A stretch of 64,000 nucleotides of DNA, taken from assembly GCF_000338295.1 (NCBI RefSeq), contig NZ_ANMO01000122.1, forward strand, positions 1 to 64,000, given 5' to 3'. The notes beneath the pieces were generated by a model. The model saw nothing but the letters and a program-made list of their open reading frames with translations, did no database searches and had not been told where the DNA came from. The position numbers and the translations under genes were made by a program. Each line of letters begins with the position of its first letter. Position 1 is the first letter of the stretch. The DNA is from Rhodopirellula europaea 6C. Its GTDB lineage: Bacteria; Planctomycetota; Planctomycetia; Pirellulales; Pirellulaceae. Shown one piece after another: positions 55,924 through 62,999 of this stretch.

Positions 55924-57603
55924 ATGTCACCTCATCCAATGACGCTGCTGCGGCGTTCGATGCTGCGATACAAGATCGGTCGACTGCAACGTTATCTTTC
56001 CAATGCGGAACGGGCTCGCGAACTTCAGCGAGAAAACTTGCTGTGTCGCATCCGCCTGAACGCGGACACCGCCTTCGGACGCGACCACGGCTTTTCCGAA
56101 ATCCGAACTCTCGAAGACTTCCGCCGTCGAGTTCCAATCGCGGGCTACGAAGCGGCTCGACCCTATGTCGACCGAGTCATCCAGGGCGAGACGACGGCGT
56201 TGTTCCCAGAGAACACCAAGGTCGTCATGTTCGCGACGACATCCGGGACGACCGATCACCCAAAGATGATTCCGGTGACAGAGGATTTCTATCGCCAATA
56301 CAAAGCCGGCTGGCAGTACTGGGGCACGGGCGTTTACCGCGACTACCCACATCTGCTGCAGATGAAATCACTGCAGTTCTCAAGCCACTGGAACGTCACC
56401 CAAACACCGTCGGGTGCTCCCTGCGGCAACATCAGCGGACTGGCGGCGGAGACGCGGCCGTTCTACATCGGCTCGCTGTTTGTGCTGCCCGCCTGCGTCA
56501 TTCAAATCACGGAACATTTGGCCAAACACTACACCGCTTTGCGACTTAGCCTCGCTTGCGATCGTGTCGGAAAAATTGTGACGGCGAACCCCAGCACTTT
56601 GGTGGAAGTCGCCAAGTTCGCCGACGCAATGAAAGAAACCTTGATTCGTGATATCCATGACGGGACACTCACAGGCAATCAGCCCATCCCAGACGCGATC
56701 CGCCAACAACTTCGATCGCGATTGCGTCCCAACCCCCGCCGCGCTAGACAACTGCAGCAAATCGTCGACCGCACCGGTCACCTCTATCCCAAAGACGCTT
56801 GGCCGGACCTCACGTTGCTGGCCGTTTGGACCGGAGGCTCGGTTGGACTCTATCTGAATCAGTTGCCGGAATACTACGGCGACGTCGCCGTTCGAGATCA
56901 CGGGCTGTCGGCCAGCGAAGGTCGCATGACCGTGCCGCTGCAAAACGGCTCACCCTCCGGCATGCTCGACTACAGCAGCCACCATTTCGAATTCATTCCT
57001 GAATCAGAACGCGATAGCAGCACACCCAACGTGCTGGAAGCATCCGACCTGACCGAGGGCGAGAACTACTTCATCGTGCTGACGACGGCCAGCGGTCTGT
57101 ATCGGTATGACATCCATGACCTCGTTCGATGCGATGGTTTCTGTGGTCAAACTCCCATGCTCTCGTTCCTTAACAAGGGCAAGAACTTCTGCAGCTTCAC
57201 CGGTGAAAAGCTAAGCGAACACCAAGTCATGCAGGCGATGCAACAAACCCTGCAATCCATCAACGCTCCCTCCTGCACTTTCACGCTCGCACCCACGCTT
57301 GGCGAACGACCTCGATACAACTTGGTGCTCGACGACTCTTCTTTGCCAAACCTTTGCGAACGCATCGGCCAGGAATTGCAAAACCAACTGTCACAAGTCA
57401 ATTGCGAGTACGCGGACAAGTGTGCCAGCGGACGCATCGAACCAATCCAAGTCACTCGCGTTCCCGCGGGAACATGGGAAAAACTGAGGGCCAGCAAAAC
57501 GTCCAAGCGAGGCAACTTCGAGGAGTACAAGCACCCGTGCTTGACCAACGACCCAAACTTTTTGCAAAGCCTCAGCAAGCTGGATTCGACGCCACCCAGC
57601 TGA
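55924..57603 (+). CDS. GH3-family acyl-adenylate-forming enzyme
   Basis: GH3 enzymes adenylate a carboxylic acid and join it to an amine; the plant members make amino-acid conjugates of hormones such as auxin. The bacterial substrates are unknown. The 559-residue product has the nucleotide loop TTSGTTDHPK near 105-114, KMIPVT, the SEGRMTVPL active-site region and the YRYDIHDLVRCDGF segment near residue 392, in the family's order. The next gene on the same strand is the KPR-like gene, 179 bp on, and after it an ATP-grasp gene. This suggests a small amide- or peptide-like biosynthetic group. Confidence 0.9.
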   Translation: MSPHPMTLLRRSMLRYKIGRLQRYLSNAERARELQRENLLCRIRLNADTAFGRDHGFSEIRTLEDFRRRVPIAGYEAARPYVDRVIQGETTALFPENTKVVMFATTSGTTDHPKMIPVTEDFYRQYKAGWQYWGTGVYRDYPHLLQMKSLQFSSHWNVTQTPSGAPCGNISGLAAETRPFYIGSLFVLPACVIQITEHLAKHYTALRLSLACDRVGKIVTANPSTLVEVAKFADAMKETLIRDIHDGTLTGNQPIPDAIRQQLRSRLRPNPRRARQLQQIVDRTGHLYPKDAWPDLTLLAVWTGGSVGLYLNQLPEYYGDVAVRDHGLSASEGRMTVPLQNGSPSGMLDYSSHHFEFIPESERDSSTPNVLEASDLTEGENYFIVLTTASGLYRYDIHDLVRCDGFCGQTPMLSFLNKGKNFCSFTGEKLSEHQVMQAMQQTLQSINAPSCTFTLAPTLGERPRYNLVLDDSSLPNLCERIGQELQNQLSQVNCEYADKCASGRIEPIQVTRVPAGTWEKLRASKTSKRGNFEEYKHPCLTNDPNFLQSLSKLDSTPPS

Positions 57604-57782
57604 TCGTTCGCACCGGACATGACAACCGAATTCACGGGATGTCGCCGCGTCGAGACACCTGGGTTCCGGCGGCAAGCTTCGATTCAACGAGCGTCACTTA
57701 AAGAGCCGTCGCCCGGTCGTTATGATGTTGCATCCACGTTAATGCGCCGGCCTTTTCCAACTCTCATGACCGACATCGTGCT

Positions 57783-58829
57783 ATGAAAATCAGTGTTCTC
57801 GGAGCCGGCGCGATCGGCACCATGCTTGGCGGCTTGATCCGCGACAACGATCCGACTTGCGAGGTCGTCTTGCTCGGTCGCGGACCTCATATCCAAACGA
57901 TTCGCGACTCCGGCCGCGTCCAACTGCAAGGTCCCTGGCCAGATCGCGACGTTCCAATCATCGGAACCGATGATCCAGCCGACATCGCCGGTTCGGACAT
58001 GGTGCTGGTGACCGTCAAATCTCAAGCCACGGCGGAAGCCATCTCGGCCGCCGCACCCTACCTCGGATCCGCAATCGTTGTCTCGGTTCAAAATGGTTTC
58101 AACGACGACGCCTTGTTGCAACATGTCGACGAAAAACACTTGGTCATGGGAATCACCGCAACCAACGTGACCGTCCCCCAACCCGGCACCGCCAGCCTTC
58201 AATTCAACGGCACCATTGTTCTCGGCCCGAATGCCCAAGGTACCAATGCCGCTTCCGCCACGGCGGCGACAAAGATACTTGAAAAAACCGGCTTTCGAGT
58301 CTTCGAAGAAGCCAACGTGGAAGGTGTCCGGTACAACAAACTTGCCATCAACTCTCCCGGCTACGCCGCTTCACTCTCGCAATCCAACTTCATCACCGAA
58401 GCCGTTTGCCATCGCGGTTGGCGTGGCGCCGTTGGCAAACCTCTGGCGGATGAATGCTTGCAAGTCTTCGACACCGCAGGCGTCAAACTGGCTCGGATTC
58501 CAAAGCTCCCTGACATCCGAAAGCTACGTGGCTTCTTTGGAAAACTCGACTCGCCTTTGCTAGGACCGATTGTCGGAACCGGCGCCAAACTGATCTTCAA
58601 TCGACGCCCAATCCAGTTCTCGCTGTACCAAGATCTGCTCAAAGGCAAAGGCACCGAAGTCGACCACACTCTCGGTGAGATCGTTCGCTTGGCAGAGCGA
58701 AATGGCACCACGGCTCCGTACAACCAAATGGTCATCGACTTGGCCCGGGAGATTGAAAATCGCGGAGCCGGAAAGTTCTTCACCCGCGAAGAAGTCATCG
58801 ATCGCTTCCGACAAATCGAATCGCGATGA
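57783..58829 (+). CDS. Ketopantoate reductase-like oxidoreductase
   Basis: The 348-residue product is related to 2-dehydropantoate 2-reductase (PanE/ApbA): an NAD(P)-binding Rossmann motif LGAGAIGTMLGG at the N-terminus, VTVKSQAT and VSVQNGFND in the loop regions, and the catalytic lysine in RYNKLAINSP. The family covers enzymes other than PanE, and this copy is longer than the usual 300 residues, so a role in pantothenate synthesis is not secure. Its stop overlaps the start of the next gene (ATGA at 58826), giving translational coupling with the ATP-grasp protein. That favours a shared pathway. Confidence 0.88.
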   Translation: MKISVLGAGAIGTMLGGLIRDNDPTCEVVLLGRGPHIQTIRDSGRVQLQGPWPDRDVPIIGTDDPADIAGSDMVLVTVKSQATAEAISAAAPYLGSAIVVSVQNGFNDDALLQHVDEKHLVMGITATNVTVPQPGTASLQFNGTIVLGPNAQGTNAASATAATKILEKTGFRVFEEANVEGVRYNKLAINSPGYAASLSQSNFITEAVCHRGWRGAVGKPLADECLQVFDTAGVKLARIPKLPDIRKLRGFFGKLDSPLLGPIVGTGAKLIFNRRPIQFSLYQDLLKGKGTEVDHTLGEIVRLAERNGTTAPYNQMVIDLAREIENRGAGKFFTREEVIDRFRQIESR

Positions 58830-60112
58830 GCGACTCGCGGCGCATCTTATTGACGGAAGGATCCAGCACATCAGCTCGCCAAACGCTGCATTGCCTTGGC
58901 GGCCGGCACACGATCGACGTCATGGATTCGGCCGCTCTCAGCCAAGGTCGTTTCAGCACGTTTGTCCGGCATTGGCACCGATGCCCGCTTTCTTCGGCCG
59001 ACCCAATCGCCTATCTGCGACGACTGAAAGAACTGATCGACGAGCACCACTACGACGTTGTGGTTGCAACGCATGAACAAGCCTACTTGCTCAGCCGCGT
59101 GCGAGATCAACTTCAAAACCATGTTGGTGTGGCGTTGCCAACGTTTGACGCGATCGACCGTCTGCAAGACAAAGCCAACTTCGCGCGAGCGATGGAAGAG
59201 TTGGGCTTGCCGCAACCGCACACTCGCATCGTTGACGGGACATCCGCCCAGTCACTGCAGAAAGGCTGCTCTGCACAATCCGAATTCCCTTGCTTTCTGA
59301 AAACGGCTCACGGAACTGCAGGCAGGGGAGTTGTCGCTATTCATGACTCCGCGGAGATGCGTGAATGGGTCAAAGAACAAACCGCAAGCGACGCGTCTCT
59401 TCCCAACCAAGAAATCGTCCTGCAGTCGGCCGCACCCGGTGAACTGTCGATCCTGCAAGCCATCTTCGATCGTGGACGCATGGTTGCTTGGCACGACGCC
59501 ATGGGACAGCGTCGTGGAGTGGGCGGCGCACCGATCGTTCGCGTCAGCACACACCGTGAAAACGTTGCTGACGACGTTCGCAAACTCGGCGAGTCACTCG
59601 ATTGGCACGGAGCCCTCTTCGCCGAATACTTCTATGACCAAACAACTGGGCATCATCAATTCATCGAAGCCAATCCGCGAATCGGCGAAACGGTCAACGC
59701 GATGCTGGCCGGCGTCAATCTGTGCGAATTTTTGGTCAAGGTTTCACTGAATGAAATCCCCGATTCGGCGCCGGTTGCTTCGGGCGTCGCTGGGGTTCGT
59801 TCTCACCAATTCCTCACCGCGTTGCTCGATCAGGCCATGCAAACCGGATCGCGGGCGGCGGTGTGGCAAGAGATCACCAACCGGATCCGTCACAAAGATG
59901 GCTACCGCGATTCACAGCCCGAAATGATGCGGCTTAAACAGGACTTGCTTAGCGGGATCCCGCCACTGGCCGTTGCAATGGAACTGTTGCTATCTCCCAA
60001 ACGCTCGCACAAAATGGTGCGATCCACTGTCGCAAACTACGGCATGAACGCCGACGCGGTCGCCAAGATTGCCAGCCTGCCCAGCCAGGAACTCTCGGCA
60101 ATCTTCGAGTGA
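58826..60112 (+). CDS. ATP-grasp domain protein
   Basis: The 428-residue product has an ATP-grasp core: DKANFARAMEELGLPQP, FLKTAHGTAGRGVVAIHD (ATP-binding loop), EYFYDQTTGHHQFIEANPRIGE with the metal-binding Glu-x-Asn, and a small N-terminal pre-ATP domain (ILLTEGSSTSARQTL). Such proteins form amide or peptide bonds through an acyl phosphate, or carboxylate a substrate. It is translationally coupled to the ketopantoate-reductase-like gene and lies downstream of the GH3 gene. The substrate is unknown. A C-terminal helical extension beyond the ATP-grasp core is not recognised. Confidence 0.87.
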   Translation: MSDSRRILLTEGSSTSARQTLHCLGGRHTIDVMDSAALSQGRFSTFVRHWHRCPLSSADPIAYLRRLKELIDEHHYDVVVATHEQAYLLSRVRDQLQNHVGVALPTFDAIDRLQDKANFARAMEELGLPQPHTRIVDGTSAQSLQKGCSAQSEFPCFLKTAHGTAGRGVVAIHDSAEMREWVKEQTASDASLPNQEIVLQSAAPGELSILQAIFDRGRMVAWHDAMGQRRGVGGAPIVRVSTHRENVADDVRKLGESLDWHGALFAEYFYDQTTGHHQFIEANPRIGETVNAMLAGVNLCEFLVKVSLNEIPDSAPVASGVAGVRSHQFLTALLDQAMQTGSRAAVWQEITNRIRHKDGYRDSQPEMMRLKQDLLSGIPPLAVAMELLLSPKRSHKMVRSTVANYGMNADAVAKIASLPSQELSAIFE

Positions 60113-60230
60113 TACAAAGCTTGCGCCGCATTGAACGGATAAGTCTGTACAATTTGCAGGCGGTGCAATTCGATTTGCGCCCATTGGATAGTCACGCTCT
60201 TTCGCTCCACTCCCCGAAATGGATCACAAC

Positions 60231-60689
60231 ATGAATCGCTTTTTTGCCTCGACCGTCCTGACTCTCGCATTTGCCACCATCGCCTCGGCACACTGCCAAG
60301 TTCCTTGCGGAATTTATGGTGACCAACGTCGCTTCGAAGAAATGCTGGAAGATGAACACACAATTTCCAAGGCACAGAACGAAATCAATTCACTTGCGGG
60401 CAAAGCCGACGCCCAATCCGTCAACCAAGCCGTTCGCTGGGTGACGACCAAGGAAGATCACGCCACTCGCATTCAGAACACCATTGCCGCCTACTTCATG
60501 GCTCAGCGGATCAAGACCGACGATCCCGCCTACGGAAAGAAGCTGATGGCCGCTCACAAGGTCATGGTCAACGCGATGAAGGCGAAGCAGTCTGCGGATC
60601 CCGCGACCGCGAAAGCTCTGGAAGAATCAATCTTTGCTTTCTACGAAGCATACGAAGGCAAGAAACCTGACTTCGATCACGAGCATTGA
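60231..60689 (+). CDS. sodN: Secreted nickel superoxide dismutase
   Basis: Ni-SOD converts superoxide to O2 and H2O2. The protein begins with a Sec signal peptide of 20 residues (MNRFFASTVLTLAFATIASA). Cleavage after ASA leaves His at position 1 of the mature chain and HCQVPCGIYGD as the nickel hook: His 1, Cys 2, Cys 6 and Tyr 9 in mature numbering. The mature part is 132 residues, helical, close to the 117 of Streptomyces Ni-SOD. An ATG at 60219 would add four residues. No sodX protease gene is next to it, which fits maturation by signal peptidase instead. It ends in a hairpin shared with the convergent gene. Confidence 0.95.
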   Translation: MNRFFASTVLTLAFATIASAHCQVPCGIYGDQRRFEEMLEDEHTISKAQNEINSLAGKADAQSVNQAVRWVTTKEDHATRIQNTIAAYFMAQRIKTDDPAYGKKLMAAHKVMVNAMKAKQSADPATAKALEESIFAFYEAYEGKKPDFDHEH

Positions 60690-60744: not shown

Positions 60745-61674
60745 TCAGGCCGCCTTCTGGGCGGCCTGACTCGTTTGAAGCAGACCGCTGAGGATTTTCT
60801 TTCCCTTCATGACGGTCTTGGCTTTTCGGATCAATGTTGGAATCGCCAAGATCACCATTGGACTGCGGATCACTTCCTTTGCAACGCGACTGATCCCTCG
60901 CCCCACTGAAACGTCTTTCGTCAACGTCTTCAGCGCGGGCTCTCCCGCTCCCGCAAAGTTATCCAGCATCCACTTCACGCCGGAGGGCATTGCGAATCGA
61001 GTCTTATCCAACAACCAAAGGATCTCCGACTCGCGAGCCGCGATTTTGGTTGCCGCTGGCTGTTGCTTTGGCATCAACACCCAGTTCACGTTGACGTTCA
61101 GTTCACCAACCGAATGAACATGGTGGAACCAATACCGAGGCAGGAACACCATATCGCCTTCGCACAAATCGAACTCGTAAACACGTTTGCCTTTCAGCGA
61201 GTTCTCCTCGAACAAGCAGGTCTTCGAGAATGGCATGTTGGGAAGCGGCGTTTCGGGAGCGACAATCGTCCAGCGTTTCTTGCCTTTGAGCTGCAAGTTA
61301 AAAACGTGCAACGAGTGACCGTCGTAGTGCCAAGGCGTGGTGTGACCGCCCGAGTTGAACCAGACTCGAACGCAGTTGTCTCGCAGAAACGCGGTGTCCG
61401 GATTCATCGATTCCGTCACGACCGGCGGCGTCGTGCAAACATCATCAATCATCTCTTGCCGCACGTCGTACCAAAGCAAACGCTCTGTCACCGATGCGTC
61501 GACCGCAATCTTGTCACAAAGCGCACGACAAACCTCTTCCGCGCCACCGTCCGCGTGAGTCACTCCCCGAAAAATGACGGGCTGTTCGGTGGCGTAGTAA
61601 TCGCGAAAAAATGTCTCGGCATCATTGGCATCCAACGACGGGATTTCGCGAGAGGCCGGGGTGGATGTGGTCAT
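60745..61674 (-). CDS. JmjC/cupin-8-like dioxygenase
   Basis: The 309-residue product has the iron-binding HxD...H facial triad of the JmjC/cupin-8 group: HYDG at 116-119 and a His in FHHVHSVG near 184-187. A WTIVAPE strand and FLPRYW follow the cupin pattern. Such enzymes hydroxylate proteins or small molecules using 2-oxoglutarate. The C-terminal 100 residues are basic and partly hydrophobic (SPMVILAIPTLIRKAKTVMKGKK) and could contact membrane. The ATG at 61674 (MTTSTPASRE) is used; an ATG at 61695 adds seven residues. It is followed at once by the amidohydrolase gene upstream (18 bp from that stop), so the two may form an operon. Confidence 0.85.
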   Translation of the reverse strand: MTTSTPASREIPSLDANDAETFFRDYYATEQPVIFRGVTHADGGAEEVCRALCDKIAVDASVTERLLWYDVRQEMIDDVCTTPPVVTESMNPDTAFLRDNCVRVWFNSGGHTTPWHYDGHSLHVFNLQLKGKKRWTIVAPETPLPNMPFSKTCLFEENSLKGKRVYEFDLCEGDMVFLPRYWFHHVHSVGELNVNVNWVLMPKQQPAATKIAARESEILWLLDKTRFAMPSGVKWMLDNFAGAGEPALKTLTKDVSVGRGISRVAKEVIRSPMVILAIPTLIRKAKTVMKGKKILSGLLQTSQAAQKAA

Positions 61675-61691
61675 GGTGCTATCTTGTGGGA

Positions 61692-62999
61692 TCAATCCAA
61701 GGAATGCTGTTTCGCAAACGCTTCGACACGTTCTCGAACGCCGGGGATCAGTTTGACGGCATTCTCATAATACAATTTGCGGAGCACCTTGGGAGGAAGG
61801 TTCACGCCGTCGATTTGCCACAATCCTTGCGGTGGAGGCTCCTTTTCGCTGTAAGGAAACGCCTCATCATCGGTCTCGAAGAACCGCCAATAGTAACGCA
61901 AACGCTGTTCCGGCCACGGTCCGTCGGTCCCAAACAGCAAACGATCCTGGTACCGAATCAAAAATTCACGAGCAGCTCGAGGCTGCCTTCCCAGCTCGTT
62001 GATTCGCGAGGCGGGCTCCAACCAAAGATTCGGATACTGATCCATCCACTCACTGACCGTCGCGAGATCTTCCGGATTGTTCGCAATATGCGCCCCAATG
62101 AACTGAGTGTTGGGATGCTTTGCGATCATGCGATTCCGGGCGGCAAAGAGCTCCTCACGGGAAGGAAATTCGTCGCCGTGAAAACTCCAATCGGGATGCC
62201 GTGAAAGTTCCTCCCATCGCTCGTTGCGCTCATCGATCGGATCAAAGAACGCTGCCGGATCGGCGGTGTGAATGATGATCGGAATTTGAAGCTCACCGCA
62301 CGCCGCCCAAATCGGATCCCAACGCGGATCATCGATCTTCATCAACGATCCATCCGGGTATCGATACCCCAAACCAAAACGCTTGAACAACTTCAGTCCT
62401 GAAGCACCTTGCTCGACCGCTTCTCGCAATTGTTCGACCGTCCGCTCGGCAAAACCGGGCCGGTAACACGCCCAAGTCGCGGGGTCATCACTCGCACCGT
62501 CTCCGCGCCAATCGATGTTGGCATACAACACAAATCGACCACGGTGCTCTTTCCATAGATAATCCTTTTGCTCCTGAAACTGAGTCCCGAGCTTTCCATC
62601 GAGCGAAACGCAGACGGCAATGTGGTTGCGGTCCATCGCGCCGACAAAATCTTCGAGCGCATCTCGATTAAGCCGCAACCGATAGAAGAAATGCGTGTGC
62701 ACATTGACCACCGGAAAGGCGGCATGCTTTACGTCGGTGACCTTCGTCTTCAACTGTGACTTCGGGTTGTAGTGATGCACCGACAAATCGCGGCCGTCAC
62801 GACCGTCGAGTGGTGTCTCATCGGCCTGATGAGATTCAACACTGGTCGCACGATCGTCACGTGACTTTTGGATCGGCTTCATTGATCCCCGCGTCTTCAC
62901 CACGGCATGAAGTTCACTGGGTTTCTGAGCGGTCGCAGCTTGCATCAGCAAAGAGGCACCAACCCAGGCAAAAAGTAACAACAAGCGTCGAAGAGTCAT
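61692..62999 (-). CDS. Exported amidohydrolase (amidohydro_2 family)
   Basis: This is a metal-dependent hydrolase of the amidohydrolase-2 superfamily. The product is 435 residues, with a signal peptide (LLLLFAWVGASLLMQAATA). Metal-site motifs are NVHTHFFYRL (HxH), PIIIHTADPAAF, FIGAHIANNPED and LLFGTDGPW, which keep all the usual His and Asp ligands. A basic, low-complexity leader lies after the signal peptide (residues 25-75). The substrate is unknown; homologues act on aromatic carboxylates or on lactones. It lies just upstream of the JmjC gene on the same strand. Confidence 0.9.
   Translation of the reverse strand: MTLRRLLLLFAWVGASLLMQAATAQKPSELHAVVKTRGSMKPIQKSRDDRATSVESHQADETPLDGRDGRDLSVHHYNPKSQLKTKVTDVKHAAFPVVNVHTHFFYRLRLNRDALEDFVGAMDRNHIAVCVSLDGKLGTQFQEQKDYLWKEHRGRFVLYANIDWRGDGASDDPATWACYRPGFAERTVEQLREAVEQGASGLKLFKRFGLGYRYPDGSLMKIDDPRWDPIWAACGELQIPIIIHTADPAAFFDPIDERNERWEELSRHPDWSFHGDEFPSREELFAARNRMIAKHPNTQFIGAHIANNPEDLATVSEWMDQYPNLWLEPASRINELGRQPRAAREFLIRYQDRLLFGTDGPWPEQRLRYYWRFFETDDEAFPYSEKEPPPQGLWQIDGVNLPPKVLRKLYYENAVKLIPGVRERVEAFAKQHSLD

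Follow-up and report, generated by a model that had tools for sequence, protein, structure and literature searches.

A planctomycete GH3, ketopantoate-reductase-like and ATP-grasp gene trio as a candidate part of a dispersed aminolipid pathway

What does a GH3 enzyme do in a bacterium, next to a ketopantoate-reductase-like protein and an ATP-grasp ligase? The question is raised by a 64,000-nucleotide stretch of the planctomycete Rhodopirellula europaea 6C (NCBI RefSeq assembly GCF_000338295.1, contig NZ_ANMO01000122.1, positions 1 to 64,000), called the window here. The list of open reading frames (ORFs) together with Pfam searches places the three genes consecutively on the + strand, and confirms the families, the order and the 4-bp overlap given in a preliminary description of this DNA:

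55924-57603, + strand: GH3-family acyl-adenylate/amide synthetase, 559 aa (Pfam, motifs)
57783-58829, + strand: ketopantoate-reductase-like (KPR) NAD(P)-dependent reductase, 348 aa (Pfam)
58826-58829, + strand: 4-bp overlap between the end of the KPR-like gene and the start of the ATP-grasp gene
58826-60112, + strand: ATP-grasp ligase-like protein, 428 aa (Pfam, predicted fold)

The GH3 and KPR-like ORFs are separated by a 179-bp gap, and the overlap of the KPR-like and ATP-grasp genes, which recurs in a related locus (L107), possibly reflects translational coupling. On balance we favour the reading that this trio serves acyl activation and tailoring at the end of a pathway for an aminolipid, either an N-acyl amino acid or a lipodipeptide, and that the remaining pathway genes are located at other places in the genome. 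Such a set of enzymes, building a fatty chain and joining it to an amino acid, is apparently undescribed and possibly represents a new membrane lipid or lipopeptide pathway. This gene set was not described in any paper listed by a literature search that covered neither bioRxiv preprints nor a large share of subscription journals, and the available part of a review of planctomycete secondary metabolites has no mention of GH3 or ATP-grasp (PMC12078418).

A scan of genome contigs with a GH3 alignment gave 131 relatives, and the best 80 loci were kept for the tallies of neighbours. Beyond the window, genes were taken as simple ORFs, a number of which are overlong at the start (for instance, the GH3 ORF in L105), and the score thresholds for neighbours were set by us. 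Annotation assigns 76 of the 80 kept relatives to the planctomycetes. An all-against-all comparison of the orthologous loci in the window's family revealed five more shared families, which by Pfam are a type I polyketide synthase (PKS) with a terminal thioesterase (TE), an enolase-superfamily (MR/MLE) protein referred to below as the epimerase, an alpha/beta-hydrolase, a 3-beta-hydroxysteroid-dehydrogenase-like NAD-dependent reductase and an MMPL transporter. Among these best 80 of 131 loci, GH3 is accompanied by a stand-alone ketosynthase (KS) or chain-length factor (CLF) in 34, by an epimerase in 21 (together with a hydrolase in 19), by a type I PKS in 11, by an OleD-like reductase in 9, by KPR in 7 and by ATP-grasp in 4; by simple arithmetic, a single-copy gene would fall in such a neighbourhood with a chance of about 0.3% (20 kb in 7.2 Mb). 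A ketosynthase is present at 28 of the 42 loci that have at least 8 kb on both sides. Relatives of all three trio genes share one locus outside the window in four of the 80 (L101, L102, L107 and L109), and a fifth genome, G007 (locus L105), carries them on one contig with the ATP-grasp gene about 11 kb from GH3. In L107, PKS, GH3, hydrolase, epimerase, MMPL exporter, KPR, ATP-grasp and reductase genes all lie within about 18 kb. The linkage is thus more than a chance arrangement and extends to other genera, so that the refuting condition set in the preliminary description, no conservation outside this genus, does not hold, yet the trio is absent from both of the congeners that we sampled.

We find that the genome of R. 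europaea 6C also contains the PKS, the reductase, the epimerase and the hydrolase, so that with the trio the core set is spread over three contigs:

C116:50924-58336 (L095:10925-18340): highly reducing type I PKS-TE (Pfam)
C28, L097:8483-11527: reductase, epimerase and hydrolase

Both blocks are away from contig ends: the PKS is 51 kb into a contig of 150 kb, and the block on C28 begins some 17 kb into one of 97 kb. Pfam finds the KS, acyltransferase (AT), dehydratase (DH), enoylreductase (ER), ketoreductase (KR), acyl carrier protein (ACP) and TE domains of the C116 PKS all present, the TE at residues 2211-2465 of 2471. We searched the 11 PKS ORFs for active-site strings, to which we attach their presumed functional meanings: the KS string DTACSS, the AT string GHSVGE and the ACP string occur in all 11, the malonyl-type HAFH and the DH, ER and TE strings in 10 each (no TE string in L103), and the KR glycine string in nine. 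The last is missing from L109 and from the PKS of the window's genome, despite a Pfam score of 214 bits for the KR domain of the latter. A second, larger PKS ORF in the same genome (C94:78867-89741, L098; 3666 aa) has 31-38% identity to the cluster PKS.

In the epimerase, K179 and K181 (the KxK pair), D209, E235, D260 and K287 are invariant in 10 aligned proteins, and we take them to have the catalytic roles of the corresponding positions in the MLE subgroup of the enolase superfamily. The L101 epimerase passed no curated epimerase, racemase or cycloisomerase model (mucon_cyclo, 110.1 bits against a cut-off of 335; A_G_epim, 90.6 against 500; DgcA, 88 against 400). The closest solved relatives of the epimerase family in this set include a dipeptide epimerase, an L-Ala-D/L-Glu epimerase and 2p88, an N-succinyl-amino-acid racemase, and an N-acyl amino acid is therefore a plausible substrate.

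The co-occurrence of these genes was followed in 100 genomes of the window's family, the Pirellulaceae, the window's own included, with orthologue lines drawn by us such that the high-identity group alone was counted. A GH3 orthologue (47-54% identity) is present in six genomes (the window's, G007, G038, G054, G066 and G084, in the last of which it is split across two contigs), and an epimerase orthologue (55-62%, E < 1e-140) is present in exactly these six, although in the window's genome the two are unlinked. The ATP-grasp orthologue (40-41%, E < 1e-80) was found in five of the six, G054 being the exception, and the KPR orthologue (41-51%, E < 1e-70) in three (the window's, G007 and G038); neither occurs in any of the other 94. 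Naive hypergeometric probabilities are 8e-10 for the epimerase, 8e-8 for ATP-grasp and 1e-4 for KPR. Lesser matches, which we did not count as orthologues, were to a distant GH3 in 13 genomes (the best, G020, at 31% and E 1.2e-66), to ATP-grasp in 57 (4.3e-15 at best), to KPR in seven (at best 28%, E 2.9e-16) and to the enolase superfamily in 93 (at best 31%, E 2.8e-30). Four of the six genomes also supply loci of the linkage survey (G007, L105; G066, L106; G038, L107; G054, L110), and the two counts are thus not independent. In each of three genera (g1, g33 and g39), orthologues of GH3, epimerase and ATP-grasp occur together in a single sampled genome and are all missing from its sampled congeners; G032, a congener of G084 in g33, has a distant GH3 at 29%. 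GH3, KPR and ATP-grasp orthologues are all absent from G045 and G091, which belong to the same genus as the window, and the best PKS matches there are one partial match at 39% and one at 45% that ends at residue 2168, short of the thioesterase.

A quick tree of the GH3 proteins, with very long outgroup branches and a rooting that we do not rely on, places the window's GH3 in a clade of 15 rows (SH-aLRT support 100) that includes all 11 type I PKS loci, and a highly reducing PKS-TE is the usual neighbour of this GH3 subfamily in related Pirellulales. The other non-window rows of the clade are L111, a short contig, and L101 and L102, whose genomes have full-length PKS-TE relatives elsewhere (47-48% identity, residues 7-2464 and 15-2465 of 2471). 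The latter two thus have a PKS unlinked from GH3, which is the same condition as in the window's genome. A sister GH3 group adjoins stand-alone ketosynthase pairs. This type II arrangement, with a KS/CLF pair, is seen in 34 of the best 80 of 131 loci, mainly from Isosphaeraceae, Gemmataceae and unclassified planctomycetes, and an alpha/beta-hydrolase of a 353-aa type is present in 34 of 34; in example loci, ACP, FabA-like and short-chain dehydrogenase/reductase genes lie upstream.

One such arrangement surrounds the second GH3 gene of Singulisphaera acidiphila (7.80 Mb, L114:4009-17326), with genes for a FabA-like dehydratase, a CLF, a KS and a 345-aa hydrolase upstream and an epimerase-hydrolase pair downstream. 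Twelve loci with distant GH3 genes of other family members (L035-L046), several of them short, showed no PKS or KS pair in the stretches covered. At L035:6017-8715, only 2 bp separate a distant GH3 gene (31% to that of the window) from a gene remotely related to MR/MLE (156 bits), a hint that the GH3-epimerase pairing is older or has arisen twice.

The GH3 protein itself, encoded by the single GH3 gene that a genome search finds in R. europaea 6C, matches the N-terminal, central and C-terminal GH3 domains of Pfam (PF03321, PF23571 and PF23572) with E-values of 9.7e-76, 5.3e-22 and 1.6e-19 and scores of 255.3, 78.1 and 71.2 bits, all above gathering cut-offs of 23.6. Its relatives of solved structure are plant amido synthetases (4b2g, 2.6e-28; JAR1, 1.2e-25). 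Motif I (T106SGTTDHPK114), motif II (327-GLSASE-332) and motif III (391-GLYRYDIHD-399) stand at the places that align with the JAR1 motifs SSGTSQGRPK, YGSSE and GLYRYRLGD, as given in the available text of PMC12493201; they are divergent, like those of OlsH, and K536 is invariant. The serine of motif I equivalent to S115 of OlsH, whose replacement by alanine is described in the same available text as abolishing activity (PMC12493201), is kept. From these motifs and by analogy, we infer that the enzyme would make amides by adenylating an acid and coupling it to an amine. Likeness to the plant enzymes (JAR1, GH3.5 and GH3.12) extends over nearly the full length and to the motif positions, but the plant substrates are hormones and benzoates, the identity to the window's GH3 is low, and we know of no PKS partner for a plant GH3.

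The closest known system in function is OlsH/OlsI, though its GH3 belongs to another subfamily. According to the available text, OlsH of S. acidiphila converts free fatty acid, ATP and ornithine to N-acyl-ornithine with no need for coenzyme A (CoA) or ACP (PMC12493201), and the earlier statement that no substrate is established for any GH3 protein from outside the plants is accordingly out of date. OlsH was the sole bacterial GH3 with a known substrate that we found in the literature searched, and its model (NF052613) is the closest curated one to the window's GH3. Both are planctomycete GH3 proteins with recognisable nucleotide-binding motifs, and both systems have an alpha/beta-hydrolase companion. 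One could therefore ask whether the locus is a plain OlsH-type ornithine lipid system, in which GH3 would have N-acyl-ornithine as its product and the other genes would play no part. We consider this unlikely. The window's GH3 scores 93.1 bits against the OlsH cut-off of 620, and S. acidiphila carries both a true OlsH (2.01 Mb, 991.1 bits) and, far from it on the genome, a member of the window's subfamily (7.80 Mb, 84.6 bits to the OlsH model); for these two reasons the identification of the window's GH3 as OlsH was dropped. Instead of OlsI and OlsG, the neighbours of the window's GH3 are KPR and ATP-grasp, and the scanned neighbours of the trio include no methyltransferase. More broadly, GH3 genes of the window type go with either a PKS-TE or a KS/CLF pair, as well as with an epimerase and an OleD-like reductase, and in some cases also with KPR and ATP-grasp. 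The olsH operon (L203) was identified by length and order from the available text of PMC12493201 as a 526-aa GH3 gene followed by 192-aa and 316-aa genes; the gene at the OlsI position resembles the cluster hydrolase just remotely (24.8 bits) and does not match the 353-aa one. The main text of that paper has no mention of ATP-grasp, ketopantoate or "Pirellul" (PMC12493201). An olsH deletion in S. acidiphila is published, and with a subfamily member in the same organism a genetic test is feasible.

In the aminolipid pathway that we favour, the iterative highly reducing PKS on C116 (KS-AT-DH-ER-KR-ACP-TE) would build the chain, and its TE would free a fatty acid. The OleD-like reductase on C28 may then reduce a keto group of the free acid. 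GH3 would use ATP to adenylate the free acid and would then couple it, as an amide, to the amino group of an amino acid, as its motifs and the example of OlsH suggest. Since OlsH takes free fatty acids without CoA or ACP, this step is consistent with a PKS that releases its product through a TE. The enolase-superfamily enzyme on C28 would epimerise a centre, most likely the amino acid alpha-carbon. Least certain are the next two proposed roles: for the KPR-like protein, the supply or reduction of a building block of 2-oxo or hydroxy type, and for the ATP-grasp ligase, a bond between the carboxylate and a second amine. Finally, the alpha/beta-hydrolase on C28 could trim or O-acylate the product, like OlsI in ornithine lipid synthesis. 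Support for a single pathway is good in the case of GH3, epimerase, hydrolase, reductase and PKS-TE (the last with a gap in G084), moderate for ATP-grasp and weak for KPR. The notion of one conjugate- or peptide-making pathway in the preliminary description is supported, but the trio alone is incomplete, and the set also has PKS-TE, OleD-like reductase, epimerase and alpha/beta-hydrolase.

The reductase points to another scheme, in which an Ole-like pathway to a beta-lactone or olefin would run from a PKS-made beta-keto acid through OleD-like reduction, with GH3 adenylation in place of OleC, itself an adenylate-forming enzyme. The best NCBIfam models of the two reductases scanned are two OleD-type 2-alkyl-3-oxoalkanoate reductases at 133-167 bits (NF042422, 136.5 for C28 and 156.7 for L101; NF042423, 133.4 and 166.6, respectively), and an alpha/beta-hydrolase is at hand. 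However, the reductase scores miss the cut-off of 580, the one cluster hydrolase scanned gave weak lipase-type matches alone and none to OleB, and no OleA or OleB model is among the listed matches of the eight proteins scanned. Further, the GH3 enzymes of known function cited here make amides, and to our knowledge the Ole pathway has no place for an epimerase, a KPR or an ATP-grasp enzyme. We regard this scheme as improbable.

The ATP-grasp protein passes the Pfam family CPSase_L_D2 (E 2.2e-10; 40.8 bits against a cut-off of 19.8) but not PF02222 (24.0, below 27), and it reached no NCBIfam cut-off, the best being PRK06849 with 80.8 against 406. Its predicted model (pLDDT 87.3) matches a carbamoyl-phosphate-synthase-like (CPS-like) structure (2pn1) with a Z-score of 26.1, PurK with 25.9, PylC with 24.9 and an L-amino acid ligase with 24.1. 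These ligase classes lie within 2 Z units and no single class stands out, so that the comparison of predicted folds allows a second amide bond to be made by this ligase but does not prove it. A gene for a fatty acid desaturase is next to the ATP-grasp gene in L101, L102 and L081, and places the latter in a lipid context even when GH3 is not linked to it. A scan of the genome contigs with the single ATP-grasp protein gave 23 pattern matches and no relative.

The role of the KPR-like protein is the part that is least clear. It matches ApbA (4.4e-25) and ApbA_C (1e-16) in Pfam, and N104, K186, N190, S280, E292 and D294 are invariant across seven aligned sequences, the window's included. K186 and E292 align with the K and E of the solved KPR 3hwr and are presumably catalytic, as in KPRs. 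Against the PanE model TIGR00745 the window's protein scores 132.8 bits, below the cut-off of 141.35, and the orthologue in L101 passes with 149.6. A second KPR, on contig C117, exceeds two NCBIfam cut-offs (424 against 360 and 233 against 141). The window's gene is therefore not the only panE-like gene of the genome, and the second refuting condition of the preliminary description, that it be the sole panE, does not hold either.

Could KPR and ATP-grasp instead form a separate small module, making for instance a cofactor or a dipeptide, that travels near GH3 genes? Both are missing from most GH3 loci; in L107 they stand away from GH3, in a row with the OleD-like gene and the gene for the MMPL exporter, and in G066 the ATP-grasp gene is on another contig. 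Yet the ATP-grasp orthologue accompanies GH3 in five of six genomes and in none of the 94 without it, even when on different contigs, its desaturase neighbour in three loci speaks for a shared lipid context, and KPR is located between PKS and GH3 in L105 and L112. Such a module is possible but doubtful.

Alternatively, the three genes could be accidental neighbours of housekeeping or catabolic function, that is, a panE, a stray ligase and a GH3. The next gene downstream, of a nickel-superoxide-dismutase-like (NiSOD-like) type, is unrelated, and the trio is absent from two genomes of the same genus. The passing scores of the C117 KPR, set beside the failure of the window's KPR at TIGR00745, argue against a housekeeping panE, and the linkage is repeated across genera. 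Recurrent linkage and co-occurrence disfavour this explanation, which we find highly improbable.

Several observations weigh against the aminolipid pathway. Linkage and co-occurrence are observed, but the product, the enzyme activities and the chemistry as a whole are inferred, and the data put no limit on which amine and acyl chain would be used or on what KPR and ATP-grasp would do. No linkage joins the three blocks in R. europaea 6C, and a single pathway there consequently rests on co-occurrence. The hypergeometric figures ignore phylogeny, and at E <= 0.001 some match is found to GH3 in 19, to ATP-grasp in 62, to KPR in 10 and to the enolase-superfamily protein in 99 of the 100 genomes. 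G084 (72% complete, 980 contigs) showed no full-length PKS-TE match, its best piece having 41% identity over 284 residues, and no PKS is beside either of its GH3 fragments. KPR and ATP-grasp, at only 7 and 4 of the best 80 of 131 GH3 loci and at 0 of the 34 type II loci, are accessory at best. Moreover, no ketosynthase is close to GH3 at 14 of the 42 loci that extend 8 kb or more to each side.

A more specific and quite tentative version of the aminolipid pathway, though one with a real chance, is a lipopeptide route free of nonribosomal peptide synthetases (NRPS); GH3-dependent N-acylation as such is already known. Here GH3 would cap an amino acid with a free fatty acid from the PKS-TE, the dipeptide-epimerase-like enzyme would invert a stereocentre and ATP-grasp would add a second residue, with KPR making a non-standard block. 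The genes of this route would be scattered in R. europaea 6C and grouped together in its relatives; in a sister version, seen mostly among Isosphaeraceae and Gemmataceae, stand-alone KS/CLF and dehydratase genes would take the place of the type I PKS. The fungal E-64 pathway is also NRPS-independent and uses an ATP-grasp enzyme followed by a second amide-bond-forming enzyme, but it starts from epoxysuccinate, and its abstract refers to no PKS, epimerase or GH3 (PMC12568646). N-acyl amino acids are described for Planctomycetota in the form of the stieleriacines, but there the available text names NasY, a putative adenylyltransferase/cyclase and a nitroreductase, and the main text has no mention of GH3 or ATP-grasp (PMC12479983). 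The same available text states that biosynthetic components are often scattered over the genome in this phylum (PMC12479983). Our data point to an amide-lipid pathway fed by a PKS, in a phylum about whose natural products and lipids little has been learned, and give a widespread planctomycete GH3 subfamily, set apart from OlsH, a testable role and partners.

Around the trio, promoter-like sites (1, against 1.7 in shuffled sequences) and terminator-like sites (7, against 7.6) are not enriched, and a composition scan showed no island (GC 0.54-0.59). The glmS gene of the window is 82-86% identical to those of G045 and G091, which ties the contig to the genus. None of 10 other window genes was matched in the stretches fetched from these two genomes around glmS, and thus no empty site could be compared.

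By Pfam, the NiSOD-like gene 3' of the trio is followed by cupin/JmjC-type and amidohydrolase genes on the opposite strand, and we found no tie between any of these neighbours and the trio. The NiSOD-like gene (60219-60689, + strand, 156 aa) has a signal-like N-terminus by eye and matches Sod_Ni with 120 bits, but reaches 34.5 bits against the cut-off of 90 of the curated sodN model; from its sequence, its product is possibly an exported NiSOD variant. The cupin/JmjC-type and amidohydrolase genes (60745-62999, - strand) overlap by 4 bp and are perhaps a coupled pair.

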